NCBI RefSeq assembly: GCF_000447795.1
Contig: NZ_AUNI01000009.1
Coordinates: forward strand, 124,001-188,000
DNA length: 64,000 nucleotides
Reading direction: 5' to 3'
Source of the DNA: Bacteriovorax sp. Seq25_V
Lineage (GTDB): Bacteria; Bdellovibrionota; Bacteriovoracia; Bacteriovoracales; Bacteriovoracaceae
Both the position numbers and the translations under genes were made by a program. This document shows, in pieces, positions 1,417-41,391 of the stretch; position 1 is the stretch's first letter; the number at the start of each line of letters is the position of its first letter. The notes beneath the pieces are model-generated. The model was not told the DNA's origin, did no database searches, and saw nothing but the letters and a program-made list of their open reading frames with translations.

Positions 1417-3140
1417 ATTTTTTCCTCGATATTTAATGATAATTGCCTCTTTCCTAGGACTGGCTTGAGCCTCTCTCTTGTGTCTCCGTAGCCACGTATA
1501 AATCTGACCTTGTTGACTAGAACTTTTTCAAATTTATGAGATGTGAGATCAAGGCTTTCAGAAGGAAGGGGATTTTGATTGATATATTTTCTTAACTCGT
1601 TGTTAAGAATTTTTAGAATGTTCTCTTCTGTTTGATTAAATGCTGCAGTGAAAGCACGAGCAACATATCTAAAAACAGTGACGAGATGCCCAGTGAAGAG
1701 ATCATGGATTAAATAATTTGCAGGTAACTTATCGAGATGTTCGAAAAATGAGAATTCTCTTAGTGCACTGTCTGGAGTAACTCTCAGGTCTCCGTGGAAG
1801 TCTTTAATTATTAGACCTGCTGGAGAATGATTTTTCAGAACAATAATAGTATTTTGGCCATGAGCAACTAAACCTATCCCATACTTCATTTGTAGGTGAT
1901 AAAGCGGAACAATCACTGTATTTACATATCTGGCAAGCCAGTCGTCTTCTGACAAACCACTAAGTTTTACATATTCTGCAATTAAAAAATTATCATTGTG
2001 TGAATAAAAAAGAGCTGCCGTTGGTATTGCAATATCACCTGAAGAAATTTTAGAATCTGCCGACTCTCTCCAAATGCAACCAAGCATCTCTTTGTAGCGA
2101 TAAGGAGAAAATTCTATTCGACTGTAAATTTTATTATTTACACTTATTCCCGCAACTTCTTTCAGGCATATTGTATTTTGCTCTTTGAAGAGTTCATCAC
2201 TGTTTAGAATATTTTCAATTTCATTTGATAATGAATGACCATATGGAATTACTTTGCTTGGAATTCCTCTGAAAGATGATGTGTTGAGGATTGAAACGGA
2301 TGTTTTAATATCAAGTTTAGAGTTTTTTCTAGTGTTTGAAAGTGTTCTGATTGAGGACTGTGCTGAAAAATAAGATCCTAACTCACCAAACGAGATGATC
2401 ATTTTCTCATTAATTAAATCCGCAAATTGAATAACAATTTTATTCTCCCATTGCCATGGATGAACAGGGAAAATGATATAATCACTAATGGAAATATTTG
2501 CTTCTGCTAGTAACTTATCAATTGTCTCAAAGTCTTCTGTCGAGAGAGATTCCTTGAGGAGAACATCAACGTCATAGTTGTCATCAAGTCCAAAAGTAGC
2601 AAGAGATTTATTGACTGCAATATAAACTAGCTGGAAGCTGTTTTTTGCCTCAGGAGAATAATTTTCTAAATCTTTTGATCCCCATCCTAGTCTTCCTTTG
2701 TTCAGAAGTAGCTTTGGATGACCATCGAGAAGATGATTCATTTCACTAAAACCATATTTTGATATTTCTTCAAGTGATAAGTTTTTATATTTATTTGTTA
2801 TAAATACATCTGAATATAGTGTTTGCTCGAGTTCTTCGATAAAAATTGAAAGTGTTTCATCTGACATTTCTGTGAGATGTTGTGTTTCAAGAAAAAAATC
2901 TTTCGCTGATAAAGCTGCAACTTCTTGTGTACTTATAAACTTCTTAATTGTTGTATGATTAATTGAAATAGAGTCGAGTAGCGATTTTCTTGCTGAAAAT
3001 GTATAGCTTATGCCATTGTTCAGGCTCAGACTAAAACACGAGTCTGAAAGGTTCTCATAGTTGAAAACTTCTTCGAAGTAGAGTTCTTCTAGGGCCTTAG
3101 AGATGATTTTTCTCGATGCTAATTGATAGTTATTTTCCAC
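1413..3140 (-). CDS. iucC: NIS siderophore synthetase, IucC-like
   Basis: This is an ATP-dependent IucA/IucC-family synthetase that joins a carboxylate (usually citrate) to an amine, here probably acetyl-hydroxylysine. Family motifs run in order: GHPKLLLNKGRLGW at 140-153, HPWQW at 227-231, the SSIRTL adenylate-binding stretch near 262-267, DIKTSVSILNTSSFRGIP near 277-294, and a later AHGQN followed by KDFHGDLR. The 575-residue length is typical. The gene overlaps its upstream neighbour by 11 bases and the hydroxylase by 4. It follows the A+B fusion and precedes the D gene, so the order matches iucABCD and it is called IucC-like. Adding the second hydroxamate arm is inferred from that order. 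Confidence 0.85.
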   Translation of the reverse strand: MENNYQLASRKIISKALEELYFEEVFNYENLSDSCFSLSLNNGISYTFSARKSLLDSISINHTTIKKFISTQEVAALSAKDFFLETQHLTEMSDETLSIFIEELEQTLYSDVFITNKYKNLSLEEISKYGFSEMNHLLDGHPKLLLNKGRLGWGSKDLENYSPEAKNSFQLVYIAVNKSLATFGLDDNYDVDVLLKESLSTEDFETIDKLLAEANISISDYIIFPVHPWQWENKIVIQFADLINEKMIISFGELGSYFSAQSSIRTLSNTRKNSKLDIKTSVSILNTSSFRGIPSKVIPYGHSLSNEIENILNSDELFKEQNTICLKEVAGISVNNKIYSRIEFSPYRYKEMLGCIWRESADSKISSGDIAIPTAALFYSHNDNFLIAEYVKLSGLSEDDWLARYVNTVIVPLYHLQMKYGIGLVAHGQNTIIVLKNHSPAGLIIKDFHGDLRVTPDSALREFSFFEHLDKLPANYLIHDLFTGHLVTVFRYVARAFTAAFNQTEENILKILNNELRKYINQNPLPSESLDLTSHKFEKVLVNKVRFIRGYGDTRERLKPVLGKRQLSLNIEEKI

Positions 3141-5364
3141 TTAGATACTCCTGGAAAAACCTACTACGGTCACAACGAGTGAGTGCTGCTCTTTTATGAG
3201 GAAAATCAAATTCTTTTACAAGTGACCAGCCTGGAAGGGACGTTGCAAATTTAATAACCTTTTTATTATCAGCTCTCGGCTCTCCCCAGATTCTTTTTGT
3301 ATTCAAATTACTTTGAAATAAGTAGTCGCAGATACAGTTTATTGATTCTATAACATAGCGAGAACCTAGAAACTTTTCTTCTCCGATTAGGAAGTGAAAA
3401 CCCATATCTTCTGATTCAGGATTACAGTAAGGAGCGATACGATCTCCATAAGCATTGTATACTTCAAAGTATCCAATTGGCTTTTCATCAACAAGACACA
3501 TTAATGGTGTCTGATAAGGACTCTTGATAAGATTGTGAATATATGTTTTTAGTTCTTCCTTTGGAAGATTCATCTCCCAGAACTCTTTAACGTACCCTTG
3601 ATGCTGCCAAGTGTAGAAAGTTTCTAAATCACTCTTGTTATTCATAACTCTAAAAGAAATGGGACGTGAAAGTTTCTTCACTTCTTTTGTATACACAATT
3701 TTATCAACAGTATTTGGCGTTATAGTTCGAGCATTATGAAATATTGGGTTTGGAATCTTGTTGTAAATAAGTGTTGGATCAGCCATTGTATTTTCATTGT
3801 GACTTTCAACTGAACATCTAAAATTACCTTTTTGCCAAAGTGTTTCTGAATTAAGGAGGTTGGAGATAATACTTCTGTCAGCAATTTGATCCCTCATTGA
3901 TAATGTAAATAGAAAGTTTTTAAATTCATTAATGATGAATTTTTCAAGGTAGCTATCACCGTCAGCCATTTCACTAATAAATGAAAAAGTTGTGTTGATG
4001 ATAAGATAATATGAAAAAATTTTGTTAACATTTTCACTGTCTAAAATATTCCCATTTTCTTTTTCAAAATTTGCAATTTGATGTTCAAATTTCTTCGATC
4101 CGTGTTGAGTGAATCCGCTTCCTTGGCAGTCTTTAAATAGGACTCGATCAAAGAGACCATCTTTAGTAGAAATAATAATGTTTTGGAGATGAGCCCCTAG
4201 TAAAACGCCGTGATCTGTAGCGAGTGTGAGTATAGGCTCGATAATTTTTTTAAAAAATGAATTAGAAATAAGTTTAGTTGCTAGAATTTTGTTTGAACTG
4301 TAGCTCTTTACAAGTGTGCCAAGTTGAGAGATTTTTGAATCACTTTTCTTTTCGATGAAAGTCGCGAGAAGGTGATAATCTGCACTTTCATTTTCAAAAT
4401 TGTCTCTTAGTACAAATGATGACTCCTGAACTCCTTTGATGCAACTATAGACTGGTTCACCTAGGATTTTGAAGTTATCATATTTTTTAAGATGTTCTTG
4501 TATATATGAAGTTTCTTTTAATTGTGTTACTTGTAGCCCACGCATACACTCATTTTTTGTCAGCACTCGTACAGAGTTAGTCAGTTGCACGGACATGGAA
4601 AACTTGATTGTGAATGGAGCTTGGTTACAGTAGAGAGAGCGCATCGAAGATGTTGGGTACCAATCGTTTAGCCCTTCACTTGTTTTGATCTCTTTAGCAA
4701 TATTTGTAAGCTTTCGTAGTTGCCATGGATGAAAAGGAAAAGGTGTTTTCCCTGTTGGGATATCAGTTATACCTTCAAATTTTGCAAGCTCTACAATTGC
4801 ATCTTTATATTTTGCAGAAGCAATTAAACTTTCAACTATGTCATTGTCTAGCAGTATCCACTGAAGTTTAAACTTTGAAGCATATTCAGGAGAGAACTTC
4901 TCCGTCTCCTTATTTGTCATCCCCTTCTTAAGCTTTGGAAAAGGATGAAATGGGTGTCCAAACAGAAGGTTTTGTTCAGAAGCGATATAATTATCTGACG
5001 CTTGTTTGGTCGTCTTTTGTGCGTCGAAAATTCTTTCAAGTTCTTTATCGCTTTCTAGAATATTACTAAGAAAACTTGAATTATCTCCATGTGGAAATAG
5101 TTTAGTGATGATAATTTCTTTTAGAGACCCTGGAGTAATGTGAGTTAGATTACCATTCTCTTCAAGTATGTACTCCGATGAAAATTTGTGATTTCCTGTT
5201 ATTGATATAAAGTCAGCATTAATTATAAGTTTTTCATCCGCTGAGAATGCAATGATTAATTTATTGTTCTTGAATGTAAATCTATCGTCACCTGAAAAAT
5301 CTCTTAGAAGAGAGTTCAGAAATGATTGATTAGAATAAATTGTTGTTAAGTTATTCTGTTGCAT
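3130..5364 (-). CDS. Fused NIS synthetase (IucA-like) and GNAT acetyltransferase (IucB-like)
   Basis: The 744-residue protein joins two activities that are separate proteins in the classical aerobactin pathway. Residues about 1-555 are an IucA/IucC-family synthetase: GHPFHPFPKLKKG at 136-148, HPWQ at 212-215, PTSSMRSL at 237-244, KFSMSVQLTNSVRVL at 254-268, GAHLQN near 390, and KDCQG near 411. Residues about 568-744 match the siderophore N-acyltransferase type (IucB/RhbD): FRVMNNKSDLETFYTWQHQ, a GYFEVY strand, GFHFLIG, and RIWGEPRADN at 691-700. It would acetylate N-hydroxylysine and condense it with citrate. No stop or frameshift lies between the domains. It overlaps both neighbours (14 and 11 bases). 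Confidence 0.85.
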   Translation of the reverse strand: MQQNNLTTIYSNQSFLNSLLRDFSGDDRFTFKNNKLIIAFSADEKLIINADFISITGNHKFSSEYILEENGNLTHITPGSLKEIIITKLFPHGDNSSFLSNILESDKELERIFDAQKTTKQASDNYIASEQNLLFGHPFHPFPKLKKGMTNKETEKFSPEYASKFKLQWILLDNDIVESLIASAKYKDAIVELAKFEGITDIPTGKTPFPFHPWQLRKLTNIAKEIKTSEGLNDWYPTSSMRSLYCNQAPFTIKFSMSVQLTNSVRVLTKNECMRGLQVTQLKETSYIQEHLKKYDNFKILGEPVYSCIKGVQESSFVLRDNFENESADYHLLATFIEKKSDSKISQLGTLVKSYSSNKILATKLISNSFFKKIIEPILTLATDHGVLLGAHLQNIIISTKDGLFDRVLFKDCQGSGFTQHGSKKFEHQIANFEKENGNILDSENVNKIFSYYLIINTTFSFISEMADGDSYLEKFIINEFKNFLFTLSMRDQIADRSIISNLLNSETLWQKGNFRCSVESHNENTMADPTLIYNKIPNPIFHNARTITPNTVDKIVYTKEVKKLSRPISFRVMNNKSDLETFYTWQHQGYVKEFWEMNLPKEELKTYIHNLIKSPYQTPLMCLVDEKPIGYFEVYNAYGDRIAPYCNPESEDMGFHFLIGEEKFLGSRYVIESINCICDYLFQSNLNTKRIWGEPRADNKKVIKFATSLPGWSLVKEFDFPHKRAALTRCDRSRFFQEYLSGK

Positions 5365-6592
5365 TAGATATCCTATAACTCGAGATGTGGCTTAAAATGC
5401 TTAATATCGTAAATATTCCGAGCGTAAAGAGTAGTGTAGTTTGCAATGATCCAGCTGTTAGATAGATTAGTGTAATTAACAGAGCTGGAAATAAAATTTG
5501 AAACTTTCTTGTTTTGTAAAATGTATTTAATTTTTTAATTTTTAAATTTCGAATCTTCTTTTTTCGTATTAAGTATATGAGAAGGGCACTTAGTGGAAGA
5601 ATGGAACTCAGCAAAGAGAATATTGTCCAGATTACTTTTAGTGTCGCCCCGCCAAAGTTTCCGTAATGTAGAGGCTCAGAAATAATGATTGTCTTAAGGA
5701 TAAAAGGTAGTTCGACTACCTTAACGTCAATCGCCTCATTGACAGATACAAACATGAGTCGTTTAATTTCTCCTTCTTCAAGAAGAATAGAGTAAGATGA
5801 TGGCGTCGAAAATTCATTATCTGGAAATGAAATAAAATCAACTTCATTTCCTTCTAGATTAGCAAAAGCTTTATTCAATGCTTTGGGAAATTCTGATTTA
5901 GCTTCTGCGCTAATTATTTGAGCGTTAATTTGGGACTTGAAGTATAGGTTAATAATTAGTCCATTAAATGAAAGAAACACGCCAGTGAGTGAGACTATTA
6001 GAAGCCATGAGAAAGTGAAAACACCGATAGTATTATGAATACTTCCAACTAATGTTCTAAGGTTAGAGACTGGTTTATTATTTTTAAACTTCTTAAGTAT
6101 CAATATTCCACTAAGTAGGATAAAGATCAATCCAAGACCTATAAGGCCAATTAGATACTTTCCCTTTCCCCCAAGAAGTATATCTCTGTGAAGTTTGAGA
6201 ATAAAATCAATGAATGTATCACTTGATTTTTTTATGTTTTGAATTGTTTCAATACTTTGATTTTCTTTGTTGTAAACTAACTTCGTTGCTCCGGAGAATT
6301 TAGTTTTTCCTTGATCTGTAATCCTAATATTGATGATCTTAGAATTGTTATCATCCTTGGCCAATGATAGAATTTTCTTATTAGGAAATTGAGTTTTTAA
6401 TAACTCATAAGCAACTAAGAAATCTTGCTTTAGTAGAGGTCCTTCTTCTGAGTAGTGTACTTTCTGAGTTAGCTCTTCTTTCCAGATTAAAATTGTTCCA
6501 GTTAGAGCTAGGATGAGGAAATTCATGGCCAGGACTAGACCTAGAATCTTATGTATTTTGAATATTTTTTTAAAGATATTCGATTTTCTCAT
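5351..6592 (-). CDS. PepSY-domain membrane protein, probable ferric-siderophore reductase
   Basis: The first gene of the siderophore operon encodes 413 residues with a membrane helix at about 17-36, a PepSY-like periplasmic region, and further helices near 143-166, 185-208, 310-336, 362-380 and 385-400. The HKILGLVLAMNFL start and SLTGVFLSFNG pattern are typical of PepSY-associated membrane proteins. Relatives such as FoxB and PiuB sit in siderophore loci and are linked to reductive release of iron at the inner membrane. The role here follows from family plus operon position. The stop overlaps the next gene by 14 bases. Confidence 0.75.
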   Translation of the reverse strand: MRKSNIFKKIFKIHKILGLVLAMNFLILALTGTILIWKEELTQKVHYSEEGPLLKQDFLVAYELLKTQFPNKKILSLAKDDNNSKIINIRITDQGKTKFSGATKLVYNKENQSIETIQNIKKSSDTFIDFILKLHRDILLGGKGKYLIGLIGLGLIFILLSGILILKKFKNNKPVSNLRTLVGSIHNTIGVFTFSWLLIVSLTGVFLSFNGLIINLYFKSQINAQIISAEAKSEFPKALNKAFANLEGNEVDFISFPDNEFSTPSSYSILLEEGEIKRLMFVSVNEAIDVKVVELPFILKTIIISEPLHYGNFGGATLKVIWTIFSLLSSILPLSALLIYLIRKKKIRNLKIKKLNTFYKTRKFQILFPALLITLIYLTAGSLQTTLLFTLGIFTILSILSHISSYRISNATE

Positions 6593-6919: not shown

Positions 6920-7453
6920 TCAAAGATCATCACTATGAACTAAGGAAACAGAGTTCATGCAGTAGCGTTTTCCCGTCGGGGCAGGTCCGTCATCGAATAC
7001 ATGGCCAAGATGGGAGCCACAGCGAGAGCATACAACTTCCACTCGTGACATTCCCCAAGCATTATCTTCATGTAGAGTTACACTTTCTGGGATTGCATCA
7101 TAAAAGCTTGGCCATCCTGTGCCAGAGTCAAATTTTGTCACACTATTGAAAAGCTTTTGTCCGCAAGAAGAACAGTGAAAGACTCCTGGTCTCTTTTCTT
7201 CATTGTACTTACCAGTGAAAGCTCTTTCTGTTCCTTTCTCTCTTGTTACGTGATACTGGAGAGGAGTCATCACTTCTTTCCAGTAGTTTTCATCTTTTTT
7301 AGACCAATCAATTTTTTCATAATCAATCTTTGAAAGATGGCTTCCAATCTTATCTTGCGTTTCTTTGGCTTCTGTTTTTCTAAAAATATTAAACATAAAA
7401 ATACCTAAAATAAAAAATGGGATAATAATAAGAGCTTTTTTCTTCACGTTCAC
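6920..7453 (-). CDS. msrB: Peptide-methionine (R)-S-oxide reductase MsrB, membrane-anchored
   Basis: It repairs methionine-R-sulfoxide in proteins. The zinc-binding CxxC pairs (CSSCG and CSRCG), the GTGWPSF motif, [12 protein letters not shown] and the catalytic RYCMNS are all present, so it should be active. Unlike cytosolic MsrB it has an N-terminal basic patch and hydrophobic helix (residues about 7-25), which suggests a periplasmic enzyme anchored in the inner membrane. It lies 63 bases downstream of the thioesterase gene on the same strand and could share its transcript, and thus the riboswitch in front of it. Confidence 0.92.
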
Positions 7454-7516: not shown

Positions 7517-7912
7517 CTATGGAAGGTTTGTTTCAATACTTATTGGTTTACGATCATCATCAATGGCGACAAATGTAAACTCACCATGCACAGCTAACTC
7601 TCGAGAATCATTATACATATCCTCGAGGTAGATATCGACTCCAACAACAAGACTCGATTTTCCAACCATTTTTACTTTGCCGATTAGTTCTGCAATAGTT
7701 CCTCCTGGAATTGGTTTTTTGAAGTCTACCTTTGAACTTGAAACAGTTACTACTTTTTGGCGAGTAAAACGTGTCGCCGTAATAAATGATACTTCATCCA
7801 TCCATTTAAGTGCTGTTCCACCAAAGAGGGTGTCGTAGTGGTTAGTTGTACTTGGGAAAATTGCTTTTGATACTTTTGTTGTCGAACTCTCAATTCTACG
7901 AGATAAGTCCAT
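7517..7912 (-). CDS. Acyl-CoA thioesterase, hotdog fold (YciA-like)
   Basis: The 131-residue single hotdog domain hydrolyses acyl-CoA thioesters in the cytosol. The signature region NHYDTLFGGTALKWMDE (residues about 24-40) carries the family's catalytic acid and the GG turn. SSSKVDFKKPIPGG and a late FTFVAIDDDRKP strand also fit. The ATG has a strong AGGAGG site five bases upstream. Its leader contains a cobalamin-type riboswitch, unusual for a thioesterase. Chain-length preference cannot be told. Confidence 0.85.
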   Translation of the reverse strand: MDLSRRIESSTTKVSKAIFPSTTNHYDTLFGGTALKWMDEVSFITATRFTRQKVVTVSSSKVDFKKPIPGGTIAELIGKVKMVGKSSLVVGVDIYLEDMYNDSRELAVHGEFTFVAIDDDRKPISIETNLP

Positions 7913-7941
7913 GTTTCCTCCTGCGGGGTTGTTGAATCTTC

Positions 7942-8028
7942 AATAAAGGATCTGGCTTCTACTATTGTAGCTACAGTCGCGCGACGGCCGGGACTTTCAC
8001 CCTGTTCACTTTAAAGAGATTATTTATT
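7942..8028 (-). ncRNA. Cobalamin-type riboswitch
   Basis: Read on the minus strand, the leader of the thioesterase gene carries the conserved cobalamin aptamer blocks in order: AACAGGGTGAAAGTCC (8006-7991), GCGACTGTAG (7980-7971), a short CTAC/GTAG hairpin, and GAAGCCAGA (7959-7951). A closing P1 can be drawn between AATAAA (8028-8023) and TTTATT (7947-7942), with ATC (8020-8018) pairing GAT (7952-7950). P1 overlaps the hemJ stop codon. A strong AGGAGG lies just downstream (about 7917-7922) with no poly-U hairpin, so control of translation is more likely than termination. Confidence 0.75.
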
Positions 8029-8553
8029 TCTTATATTCTTATATGTTTTGATTGCTAACATCAAGACAATTGTGAAAAGGATGAGTCCAACAAGTCCATA
8101 TCCCATACTTACGATATCCTTTAATACAACAAGGAACACGATAGCTACAAGAAAGATTGTTGCAACTTCATTCCAAACTCTTAATTGGGTGCTTGTATAC
8201 TTGAATGAATTATTTAGAAGTTGTTTTAAAATACGATGGCAGCTTAAGTGGTACAGAAAAAGTCCAAAGACAAAACATAGCTTTACAATAAGCCATGGAT
8301 GGTTATTGATTGGAAAGTAATTATGAATGAGGGAAAGTCCAAAGAGAATAGTCACGATTGCAGAAGGCCACGTAATTCCAAACCACAGTCTTTTTTGCAT
8401 AATCTTAAATTGATTAGATAGAATTTCTTTTTCTGGAGATGGTTTTTCTTGAGCTTCAGTATGATAAATGAAGAGTCTTACAATATAAAAAAGCCCTGCA
8501 AACCAAGTCGTTACAAAAATGATATGAAGAGCTTTAAGATAGAAATAACTCAT
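8020..8553 (-). CDS. hemJ: Protoporphyrinogen IX oxidase HemJ
   Basis: This inner-membrane enzyme oxidises protoporphyrinogen IX to protoporphyrin IX in haem synthesis. The 177-residue length, the KALHIIFVTTWFAGLFYIVRLF start with its conserved His and Arg, the Q-RLWFGITWP segment and the VKLCFVFGLFLYH helix are characteristic of the HemJ/YggP family. About five membrane helices are visible. Its ATG shares one base with the stop of the upstream phytase-like gene (TAATG), so the two are coupled. Its stop lies inside the 5' strand of the riboswitch stem. Confidence 0.85.
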   Translation of the reverse strand: MSYFYLKALHIIFVTTWFAGLFYIVRLFIYHTEAQEKPSPEKEILSNQFKIMQKRLWFGITWPSAIVTILFGLSLIHNYFPINNHPWLIVKLCFVFGLFLYHLSCHRILKQLLNNSFKYTSTQLRVWNEVATIFLVAIVFLVVLKDIVSMGYGLVGLILFTIVLMLAIKTYKNIRNK

Positions 8554-39865: not shown

Positions 39866-41278
39866 TTAGGCCATCTTTTTTTTAGACATAATGTAGTGCA
39901 AGAATAAAACAAGGGAAGTTGTAAGAATTCCTACATATAATTCATCTACATCCACAAATAATGCAGGGCGGTTGATATTGCGCCATGTGGCAGTAGTTAC
40001 AACTCCAAGTAAACATGCATATACAAATTGTTTATCTTTAATTTTTCCTGGGAAGATGTGCCCATACATCACAGGTAAAAGTAAGCAAGAAGCTGAAAAA
40101 CTTCCAAGCGTTTTCCATACAGTTTTGATATTTCCTTTGAAAACCATTGCAAGAATCACAGAGATGATACCAACGAGAATAATTCCTAAGTGGTGGACAA
40201 TGACTTTTCCTTTAAGTTTTTTTGGAGCAAGGTCATAAGCGAGAGTAGTACCCGCAAGAAAAAGATATGAGTCCATTGTCGAAAGAATCGTTGCAAGAAT
40301 TCCGGCAAGGACAAATCCTCTTAGTCCATCAGGAAGAATTTGAATCGCATACGTCAAATAAGCATGTCCTGATTGTGCTTCTGGAATAACTGCGCGTGCA
40401 TACATTGCACCCAGAGTTGTACAAATATCAAAGCAAAACCAAATTAGCGTCGAATACAAAATTCCATTACGAGCAGCTTTTTCGCTTACCGCTGCAAAAC
40501 AACGTTGGTAGAAGTTAGGATCAACTAAAGTTGATAGGGCAATGAATCCCCATACTAGTGTTGTTCCAAGACCTACTTTTCCAGTTAGAGCAAAGTGAGT
40601 TTCTGGAAGATTTGCTCTAAGAAAATCAAGGCCTCCAAAAGTTGTGTACGAGAAAATCAAAACGATCACAACACCCGTACACATGACAAAGAATTGAATT
40701 AAGTCAGAAAAGACAACTGCGCGAAACCCGCCCCACATTGAATAAAGAACGACAAAGAGTGTCCCTAAAATAATATTAAGATATAGTTCTCCACCAAAAA
40801 GTAATTGTAGAAAAATTCCTAAGCTGATTGTGTACGCGACAGGAAGAACATTGAAAAAATTAAATATGGCCGCAAGCTTTGCTGATTTTGGACCAAACAT
40901 TTTTTCAATCAAGTCAGGAAGTGTGATTGCTTTGTATGGCGCAATTTTGTGTATGAGAAAGAATGCGAAAATTATATAGGCGACATACCAGAAGAAACCT
41001 TGAGTCACAAAATTGAAGACACCTTCGTTAAAAGCAATTTCAGTTACACCAAAAATTCCACCATACCATGTTGCTACAAGAGTCGCGACGAACATCGGAA
41101 GAGTTAATTGTCTTCCAAGAATAAGAAGATCAAGCATTGACTCTTCTTCTGATTGGATAGCTTTACTTTTTAATTTTTGGCCAATGATTACAGAAGCAGC
41201 CGTGATTAATAGAACGACAAAGAATATTCCTACATCAAGGCGTGATAGTGTTGTCCACAGGTCAATTTCTGATTTCAT
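39866..41278 (-). CDS. Sodium/solute symporter (SSS family), TPP-riboswitch controlled
   Basis: The 470-residue protein has about 13 membrane helices and SSS features (YGGIFGVTE, MWGGFRAVVFSDLIQF, and ILATILSTMDSYLFL, a sodium-site segment). The start is set at 41278 (MKSEIDLW); a longer frame from 41335 would run through the riboswitch. AAAGGAG lies 8 bases upstream and is part of the aptamer. Because a thiamine pyrophosphate switch controls it, the likely substrate is thiamine or a precursor such as HMP. That is inference; the family also carries sugars, proline and pantothenate. Confidence 0.82.
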   Translation of the reverse strand: MKSEIDLWTTLSRLDVGIFFVVLLITAASVIIGQKLKSKAIQSEEESMLDLLILGRQLTLPMFVATLVATWYGGIFGVTEIAFNEGVFNFVTQGFFWYVAYIIFAFFLIHKIAPYKAITLPDLIEKMFGPKSAKLAAIFNFFNVLPVAYTISLGIFLQLLFGGELYLNIILGTLFVVLYSMWGGFRAVVFSDLIQFFVMCTGVVIVLIFSYTTFGGLDFLRANLPETHFALTGKVGLGTTLVWGFIALSTLVDPNFYQRCFAAVSEKAARNGILYSTLIWFCFDICTTLGAMYARAVIPEAQSGHAYLTYAIQILPDGLRGFVLAGILATILSTMDSYLFLAGTTLAYDLAPKKLKGKVIVHHLGIILVGIISVILAMVFKGNIKTVWKTLGSFSASCLLLPVMYGHIFPGKIKDKQFVYACLLGVVTTATWRNINRPALFVDVDELYVGILTTSLVLFLHYIMSKKKMA

Positions 41279-41281
41279 GCG

Positions 41282-41365
41282 ATCTCCTTTCGCCAGTATT
41301 AGCTGGATCAAGTTCAAAGGGTCGTTTGTTTTCAAACCTCTCAGCCAAAAATGGCTCCCCTGATT
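41282..41365 (-). ncRNA. TPP (thiamine pyrophosphate) riboswitch
   Basis: On the minus strand the THI-box blocks follow in order: CAGGGGAGCC, GGCTGAGAGG, ACCCTTTGAACTTGATC, CAGCTAATACTGGCGAAAGGA. The paired arms (GAGCCA/TGGCTGA and CAG/CTG around TAATA) are intact. The 3' strand contains the symporter's AAAGGAG ribosome site, so binding of TPP should block translation directly. No terminator hairpin follows. Confidence 0.95.
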
Positions 41366-41391
41366 GAGTATTGGTAATTTTTAAGTATAAT
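41364..41391 (+). promoter_or_regulatory. Promoter of oxyR
   Basis: TTGAGT (41364-41369), 16 bases, then a perfect TATAAT (41386-41391), 37 bases before the oxyR ATG. It lies back to back with the leader of the TPP-controlled symporter, so the two promoters probably overlap. Confidence 0.6.

Follow-up and report, generated by a model that had tools for sequence, protein, structure and literature searches.

A compact cobalamin-class riboswitch stands on the minus strand directly in front of an acyl-CoA thioesterase gene (TE) and almost certainly controls it. Both lie in the window, the 64,000-nucleotide stretch of Bacteriovorax sp. Seq25_V DNA that we analysed. The RNA and its covariation, its conserved link to TE and the operon partners of TE were all observed directly. 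By analogy with its class, the element very probably acts as a translational OFF switch. The whole account, in which the riboswitch controls TE translation and TE relieves acyl-CoA under B12 scarcity, appears reasonably probable, while the chances that this relief serves the mutase pathway seem to us evenly balanced.

At its gathering thresholds, Rfam did not detect the element: the search of the window gave one TPP riboswitch, three tRNAs and no cobalamin match. A lineage model was therefore required. This covariance model, R1, was built from the aligned leaders of 19 relatives' orthologous TE genes, with the window left out. An R1 search of the 64 kb placed the element at 58 bits (E 1.2e-14), toward the low end of the family scores, with a runner-up match of 13.7 bits; in a whole-genome search, its E-value was 6.7e-13. 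In a permissive search of 301 bases (7850-8150), RF01482 (AdoCbl) matched end to end with 32.1 bits against a gathering threshold of 50 (E 2.4e-4). RF00174 gave 13.5 bits at the element against 31.5. The first-pass annotation had proposed a cobalamin-type aptamer before an acyl-CoA thioesterase, as R1 and Pfam bear out, and had held that the lack of a gathering-level cmsearch match to these two families would refute it. Neither family reaches its threshold, so that by this rule the proposal formally falls; the lineage-specific model and the covariation override it, a gathering score being a detection threshold and not a biological feature. The leader, read from 8026 to 7910, terminates at the ATG of the 131-aa gene. 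Its earlier placement at 7942-8028 was right as to location, but the true extent, 7910-8026 with helices from 8021 to 7935, goes slightly beyond that span. The same genome contains a second site, above the RF00174 cut-off at 33.1 bits, which precedes a TonB-dependent receptor gene. The TPP riboswitch of the window (41268-41371, minus strand, 74.4 bits) marks the 5' end of a reading frame of 489 aa (39866-41335, minus strand) that resembles a sodium/solute symporter and is possibly a thiamine-related transporter.

Table 1. Coordinates of the riboswitch, its structural parts and the adjoining genes in the window.
Feature	Position	Strand	Basis
Compact cobalamin riboswitch with expression platform, through the TE start codon	7910..8026	-	model R1, RF01482
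Aptamer	7935..8021	-	sequence placed on the R1/covariation structure
Outer helix (with internal loop and bulge)	8021-8009 with 7948-7935	-	structural placement
P4	8002-8000 with 7992-7990	-	structural placement
P5	7986-7984 with 7980-7978	-	structural placement
P6	7976-7974 with 7954-7952	-	structural placement
Inner hairpin in P6	7970-7967 with 7962-7959	-	assigned by eye
L5 loop, CGC in UCGCG	7981..7983	-	proposed kissing partner 7925-7923; L5-tail co-changes in relatives
Expression platform CCCCGCAGGAGG, with proposed L13 and ribosome site AGGAGG (7922-7917)	7917..7928	-	sequence
TE, 131 aa, 4HBT hotdog acyl-CoA thioesterase, controlled gene	7517..7912	-	PF03061
hemJ-like gene, upstream neighbour	8020..8553	-	PF03653 (UPF0093), 136 bits
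msrB, downstream neighbour	6920..7453	-	TIGR00357, 171.3 bits (cut-off 113)

The conserved core, comprised of the outer helix, P4, P5 and P6, is present in the window element, as seen from the full-length matches to R1 and RF01482 and from covariation. The leader carries the cobalamin-aptamer blocks GGGUGAAAGUCCC, GUCGCGCGACUGUA and GAAGCCAGAUCC, followed by CCCCGCAGGAGG immediately 5' of the start codon, and a CCCGNGGAGG-like segment is retained among the expression platforms of relatives. Across 74 distinct matches and 16 modelled pairs, standard pairing occupies 90.8% of cells compared with 71.6% after shuffling, and 11 of the 16 pairs change on both sides, counts that are biased toward the structure because the alignment was fitted to it; the signal is lost once partners are shifted along the alignment by 1-3 columns. 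The window itself contributes a compensated change, closing P5 with C-G where 72 sequences have U-A. Thermodynamic folding of the single window sequence gave no signal (z 0.32). This value, the scores below Rfam gathering and the 58 bits, low for the family, would suit a chance resemblance or a decayed, functionless riboswitch in this genome. Such a reading is nevertheless very improbable, given the R1 E-value, an intact P4, P5 and P6 core with a compensated P5 pair, an orthologous position that is occupied in 23 genomes, and an intact TE frame with a strong ribosome site; chance resemblance is already excluded by the R1 E-value together with the family conservation. Judged from its sequence, the window RNA adds a new and diverged member to the cobalamin riboswitch clan.

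The L5-L13 kissing loop is a known interaction of cobalamin riboswitches (PMC9600662). Among relatives whose L5 starts with UCC, the following base co-changes with a base before the ribosome site (C-G 48, A-U 3, G-U 3), and the spacer is longer by one base in the A-U cases. The L5 types UCGCG, UCGUG and UUGCG are matched in their own tails by CGC(G), CACGA and CGCA, respectively. On this comparative reading, the L5/tail co-changes of the relatives are the known kissing loop. For the L5 of the window, UCGCG, the ribosome site offers CGC(A)GG as a partner, which describes pairing potential only. Following the known mechanism of the class, ligand binding would stabilise the kissing loop, hide the ribosome site and turn translation off. 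Specifically, we infer that cobalamin is the ligand and that its binding acts in the OFF direction: with ample cobalamin the aptamer would fold and L5 would pair with the ribosome-site segment, so that little TE is produced, while with scarce cobalamin the ribosome site would be free and TE would be made.

The TE protein matches Pfam PF03061 with 53.3 bits (cut-off 20.6), and it has PDB matches to acyl-CoA hydrolases (best E 1.3e-41). Residues N24 and D39, within NHYDTLFGG..WMDE, are invariant across the aligned orthologs. With 38.3 bits against the YciA equivalog cut-off of 162 (NCBIfam NF007970), TE is not classed as YciA, and in the tree it belongs to a clade of 105 sequences that stands apart from the ordinary paralogs of the family (support 100).

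The hemJ-like gene upstream, which scores 117 bits with TIGR00701 and thus falls under the cut-off of 138, ends inside the element, where the 5' helix strand of the aptamer overlaps its stop codon (8022-8020). This overlap had been described by the first-pass annotation correctly, but the functional tetrapyrrole join that it drew to hemJ is not supported, the adjacency being found only in the window and two congeners. If riboswitch and hemJ formed a tetrapyrrole unit, B12 status would feed haem synthesis and TE would be a passenger. The overlap and the upstream hemJ of the two congeners would agree with this, yet the unit is barely credible, since the switch acts on the downstream start site while hemJ lies upstream, and since hemJ adjacency is confined to three species whereas the TE link spans many genera and two phyla. 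The msrB gene does follow TE, as had been annotated. The arrangement with hemJ upstream and msrB downstream is confined to three congeneric species, represented by the window, G001 and G004, for which reason a conserved unit that includes msrB was rejected. Riboswitch-linked TEs elsewhere have other neighbours, and TE is what stays with the riboswitch. A promoter scan returned a promoter-like match at 7536-7509, upstream of msrB, as a sequence match only. Positions 3130-6592 of the minus strand hold a fused IucA/IucC-FhuF-acetyltransferase siderophore-type gene, with a PepSY_TM gene upstream.

Within the family to which the window belongs, 129 genomes were searched for TE, and close orthologs with 52-100% identity were found in 25. 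In 23 of them, what precedes TE is a cobalamin riboswitch, the exceptions being G020 and G096, both of one genus. These riboswitches are compact in 21 genomes and of class I (RF00174, 55-56 bits) in two, G015 and G059, where they are broken up by 86-89 bp tandem repeats. Genomes with any R1 match have one to four, so the adjacency of riboswitch and TE is not a matter of chance. Loci L038 (1977-2346) and L068 (1153-1402) show, before TE, a class-I aptamer apparently split by 3-4 tandem repeat copies of 86-89 bp, which are lodged between the final GCCCGAAGACCTGCC block and the core on the P6 side. Two of the compact cases, G148 and G081, have a very short reading frame between riboswitch and TE. 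At L067 (777-1029), L074 (1284-1500) and L233 (minus strand), the ribosome site of the riboswitch serves a tiny frame (MNFIITS, MNISSDL and MREIS), and TE or nrdB begins only downstream of it; this arrangement suggests that control may operate through translation coupling or polarity.

Beyond the family, a genome contig scan located the nearest TE relatives in Bacteroidota, at about 67% identity. A riboswitch lies directly before TE in Chryseobacterium (11 loci, ordinary class-I elements of 105-117 bits), Pontibacter and others, while Pedobacter and Mucilaginibacter have the order riboswitch-metE-TE, with a fabH-like gene between metE and TE in Pedobacter hiemivivus. Additional riboswitch-led orders are CWC-TE, DUF6580-CWC-BtuF-like-TE (L132), PAS-TE and nrdA-TE. 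Because this first set was biased to the closest sequences, we drew an even sample of 295 Bacteroidia genomes, of which 38 carry TE. In 17 of the 38, a cobalamin riboswitch, in some cases called by R1 or nhmmer only and with a modest score, occurs on the same strand as TE and no more than about 3 kb upstream of it; 16 of these loci were newly read, all on the TE strand, and the seventeenth is that of G166 (L138). With RS for riboswitch, seven loci are RS-TE, four RS-nrdB-TE and three RS-metE-TE, and the remainder are one each of RS-TonB receptor-TE (L243), RS-PAS-TE and RS-DUF6580-CWC-TE; Pfam confirms nrdB in three of the four nrdB loci and the TonB plug domain in the receptor locus. For about half of the Bacteroidota TEs, no riboswitch was found within the stretch read. 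Conservation of the arrangement, on which the first-pass annotation had left the matter to relatives, is thus seen for the riboswitch-TE pair in both samples, but not for the hemJ/msrB context. Several Bacteroidota loci (L117, L121, L136, L139, L141, L143 and L246) have a short PAS-domain protein gene directly before or overlapping TE, and in many Bacteroidota a PAS-protein gene adjoins TE on its upstream side. At L125 (CP034120.1), the TE, CWC gene and riboswitch group with Flavobacteriales although the record bears the title Glaciecola amylolytica (Pseudomonadota), and it may be misnamed or mixed.

The recurrence of the riboswitch-TE pairing in two phyla indicates that TE is probably made when B12 is short. 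Compact and class-I aptamers serve one gene, and cobalamin control was therefore either gained repeatedly or kept through aptamer swap. In the tree, which here rests on a short alignment with few columns, the TEs of G015 and G059 group with Bacteroidota sequences (support 86), which would fit a joint transfer of the gene and its class-I switch. The low scores of the window element against both Rfam models might point to a cobalamin-aptamer derivative that senses another ligand, such as a different corrinoid or a signal related to acyl-CoA. We consider such a derivative quite improbable, as one family model with the same conserved core covers TE-, TonB-receptor- and nrdB-linked elements, and ordinary class-I cobalamin riboswitches serve TE in Chryseobacterium and other Bacteroidota.

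Among the remaining R1 targets that were read in the family, TonB receptors make up the majority; the others include nrdB(A), a BtuF-like gene and an nrdG/nrdD-like pair that was named by eye, Pfam detecting only a 4Fe-4S domain. A compact riboswitch precedes a pair resembling class III (anaerobic) ribonucleotide reductase activase and reductase at L212 and L214; class-I nrdB genes are targets at L217, L220, L222, L230 and L233. At L231 and L232 the target is unusual, a small gene whose product (MKSYLDG...YPEFLKNIYE) resembles a helix-turn-helix regulator. In Bacteroidota, TE is co-operonic with metE (PF01717) and with nrdB or nrdA. If made when cobalamin is scarce, TE would be a member of the B12-starvation regulon, together with B12 uptake, MetE and NrdAB. 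Since uptake, MetE and the B12-free ribonucleotide reductases are already in this company, the acyl-CoA mutases are left among the major B12-dependent enzymes.

Each of the 25 family TE carriers has the mutase domain PF01642, as do all 25 Bacteroidota tested from the riboswitch-linked set and all 17 riboswitch-linked genomes of the even sample (G166 being in both Bacteroidota sets). As 123 of 129 family genomes and 274 of 295 even-sample genomes have the mutase, which makes it near-universal, this co-occurrence is weak evidence. Among TE carriers overall, the mutase is rarer than in non-carriers (p 0.01, kinship ignored), and TE is missing from most mutase-bearing genomes and hence not required. 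None of the seven mutase-lacking TE carriers of the even sample is riboswitch-linked (Fisher p 0.009, ancestry not controlled). Their TEs are divergent (44-55% identity) and have TNHH, not TNHY, in the six with a readable motif, a split that was drawn post hoc and is thus a lead only. The TNHH subfamily was seen at L262, L263, L268, L269, L270 and L272, in Bacteroidia genomes without PF01642 and without the riboswitch. PrpD marks the 2-methylcitrate pathway, by which propionate is used without B12; none of the 23 family carriers tested has it, and the mutase may therefore be their sole propionyl-CoA route. MetH is present in 22 of the same 23. Chryseobacterium indologenes G166 has a PrpD homolog together with a riboswitch-linked TE, which counts against the relief reading.

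TE might instead be a B12-starvation gene outside the mutase pathway, acting in acyl turnover for B12 uptake or the envelope, or in a shift of CoA or fatty-acid pools as methionine and SAM fall. Its positions behind the TonB receptor (L243), behind the DUF6580-CWC-BtuF-like genes (L132) and behind PAS proteins, as well as the fabH-like gene of Pedobacter hiemivivus, are in line with such a role, which we hold to be a serious though lesser possibility: it offers no known B12-dependent step and leaves the missing riboswitch linkage of the seven mutase-lacking carriers unexplained. The link to a B12-dependent acyl-CoA mutase, suggested by the first-pass annotation, seems the best available reading because of the metE and nrdB operons, the mutase in every riboswitch-linked carrier tested and the absence of PrpD from the 23 carriers. 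Regarding substrate and physiological role, we infer that TE would most likely hydrolyse propionyl-, methylmalonyl- or branched-chain acyl-CoA, which would build up and sequester CoA once the mutases that depend on adenosylcobalamin (MCM and the IcmF-sized homolog) are without cofactor.

The best-known bacterial B12-dependent enzymes are MetH, class-II ribonucleotide reductase and methylmalonyl-CoA mutase, the first two of which have known B12-free substitutes under riboswitch control. In the open-access collection searched, which lacks most subscription journals, we found no description of a thioesterase as a cobalamin-riboswitch target or of a B12-repressed counterpart of methylmalonyl-CoA mutase. 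New here are TE as a regulon member and the idea that TE stands for the mutase branch. TE could constitute a third class of B12-bypass gene, a dedicated safety valve of the methylmalonyl-/isobutyryl-CoA mutase pathway in the absence of B12, beside MetE and the B12-free ribonucleotide reductases, in at least two phyla and under either compact or class-I riboswitches; we put this just on the doubtful side of even. If true, a conserved cobalamin-repressed TE would fill the mutase gap among the B12-free counterparts, point to a way in which bacteria escape CoA sequestration and the toxicity of acyl-CoA in B12 starvation, and provide a bacterial parallel to methylmalonic acidaemia. It also puts forward a role that can be tested for an otherwise anonymous hotdog family of many Bacteroidota and of the family to which the window belongs.

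Compared with known systems, the window element has in common with RF01482 (AdoCbl), RF01689 (AdoCbl-II) and clan CL00101 the outer helix, P4-P6, the core blocks and L5-L13. In contrast to RF01482, it scores below gathering and controls a thioesterase, and its L5 reads CGC, not the CCC seen in most of the family. The class-I riboswitches of RF00174 have the same core and logic and precede the orthologous TE in Bacteroidota, but the window element lacks their large peripheral part. Like the 4HBT hotdog thioesterases YciA, ACOT7 and ACOT12, whose solved relatives include 2gvh, 2eis and 5egl, TE has PF03061 and the Asn/Asp pair; unlike them, it forms a separate clade and is under riboswitch control. 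Repression of a cobalamin-independent counterpart by a cobalamin riboswitch is documented for MetE/MetH (PMC9600662). TE occupies a regulatory position like that of the B12-independent isozymes (metE; nrdAB/nrdDG), with which it shares operons (metE, nrdB), and like the B12-repressed substitutes metE and nrdAB it is under conserved riboswitch control with its presumed counterpart, the mutase, in the same genome. TE is, however, no isozyme of a B12 enzyme, and at most would relieve one.
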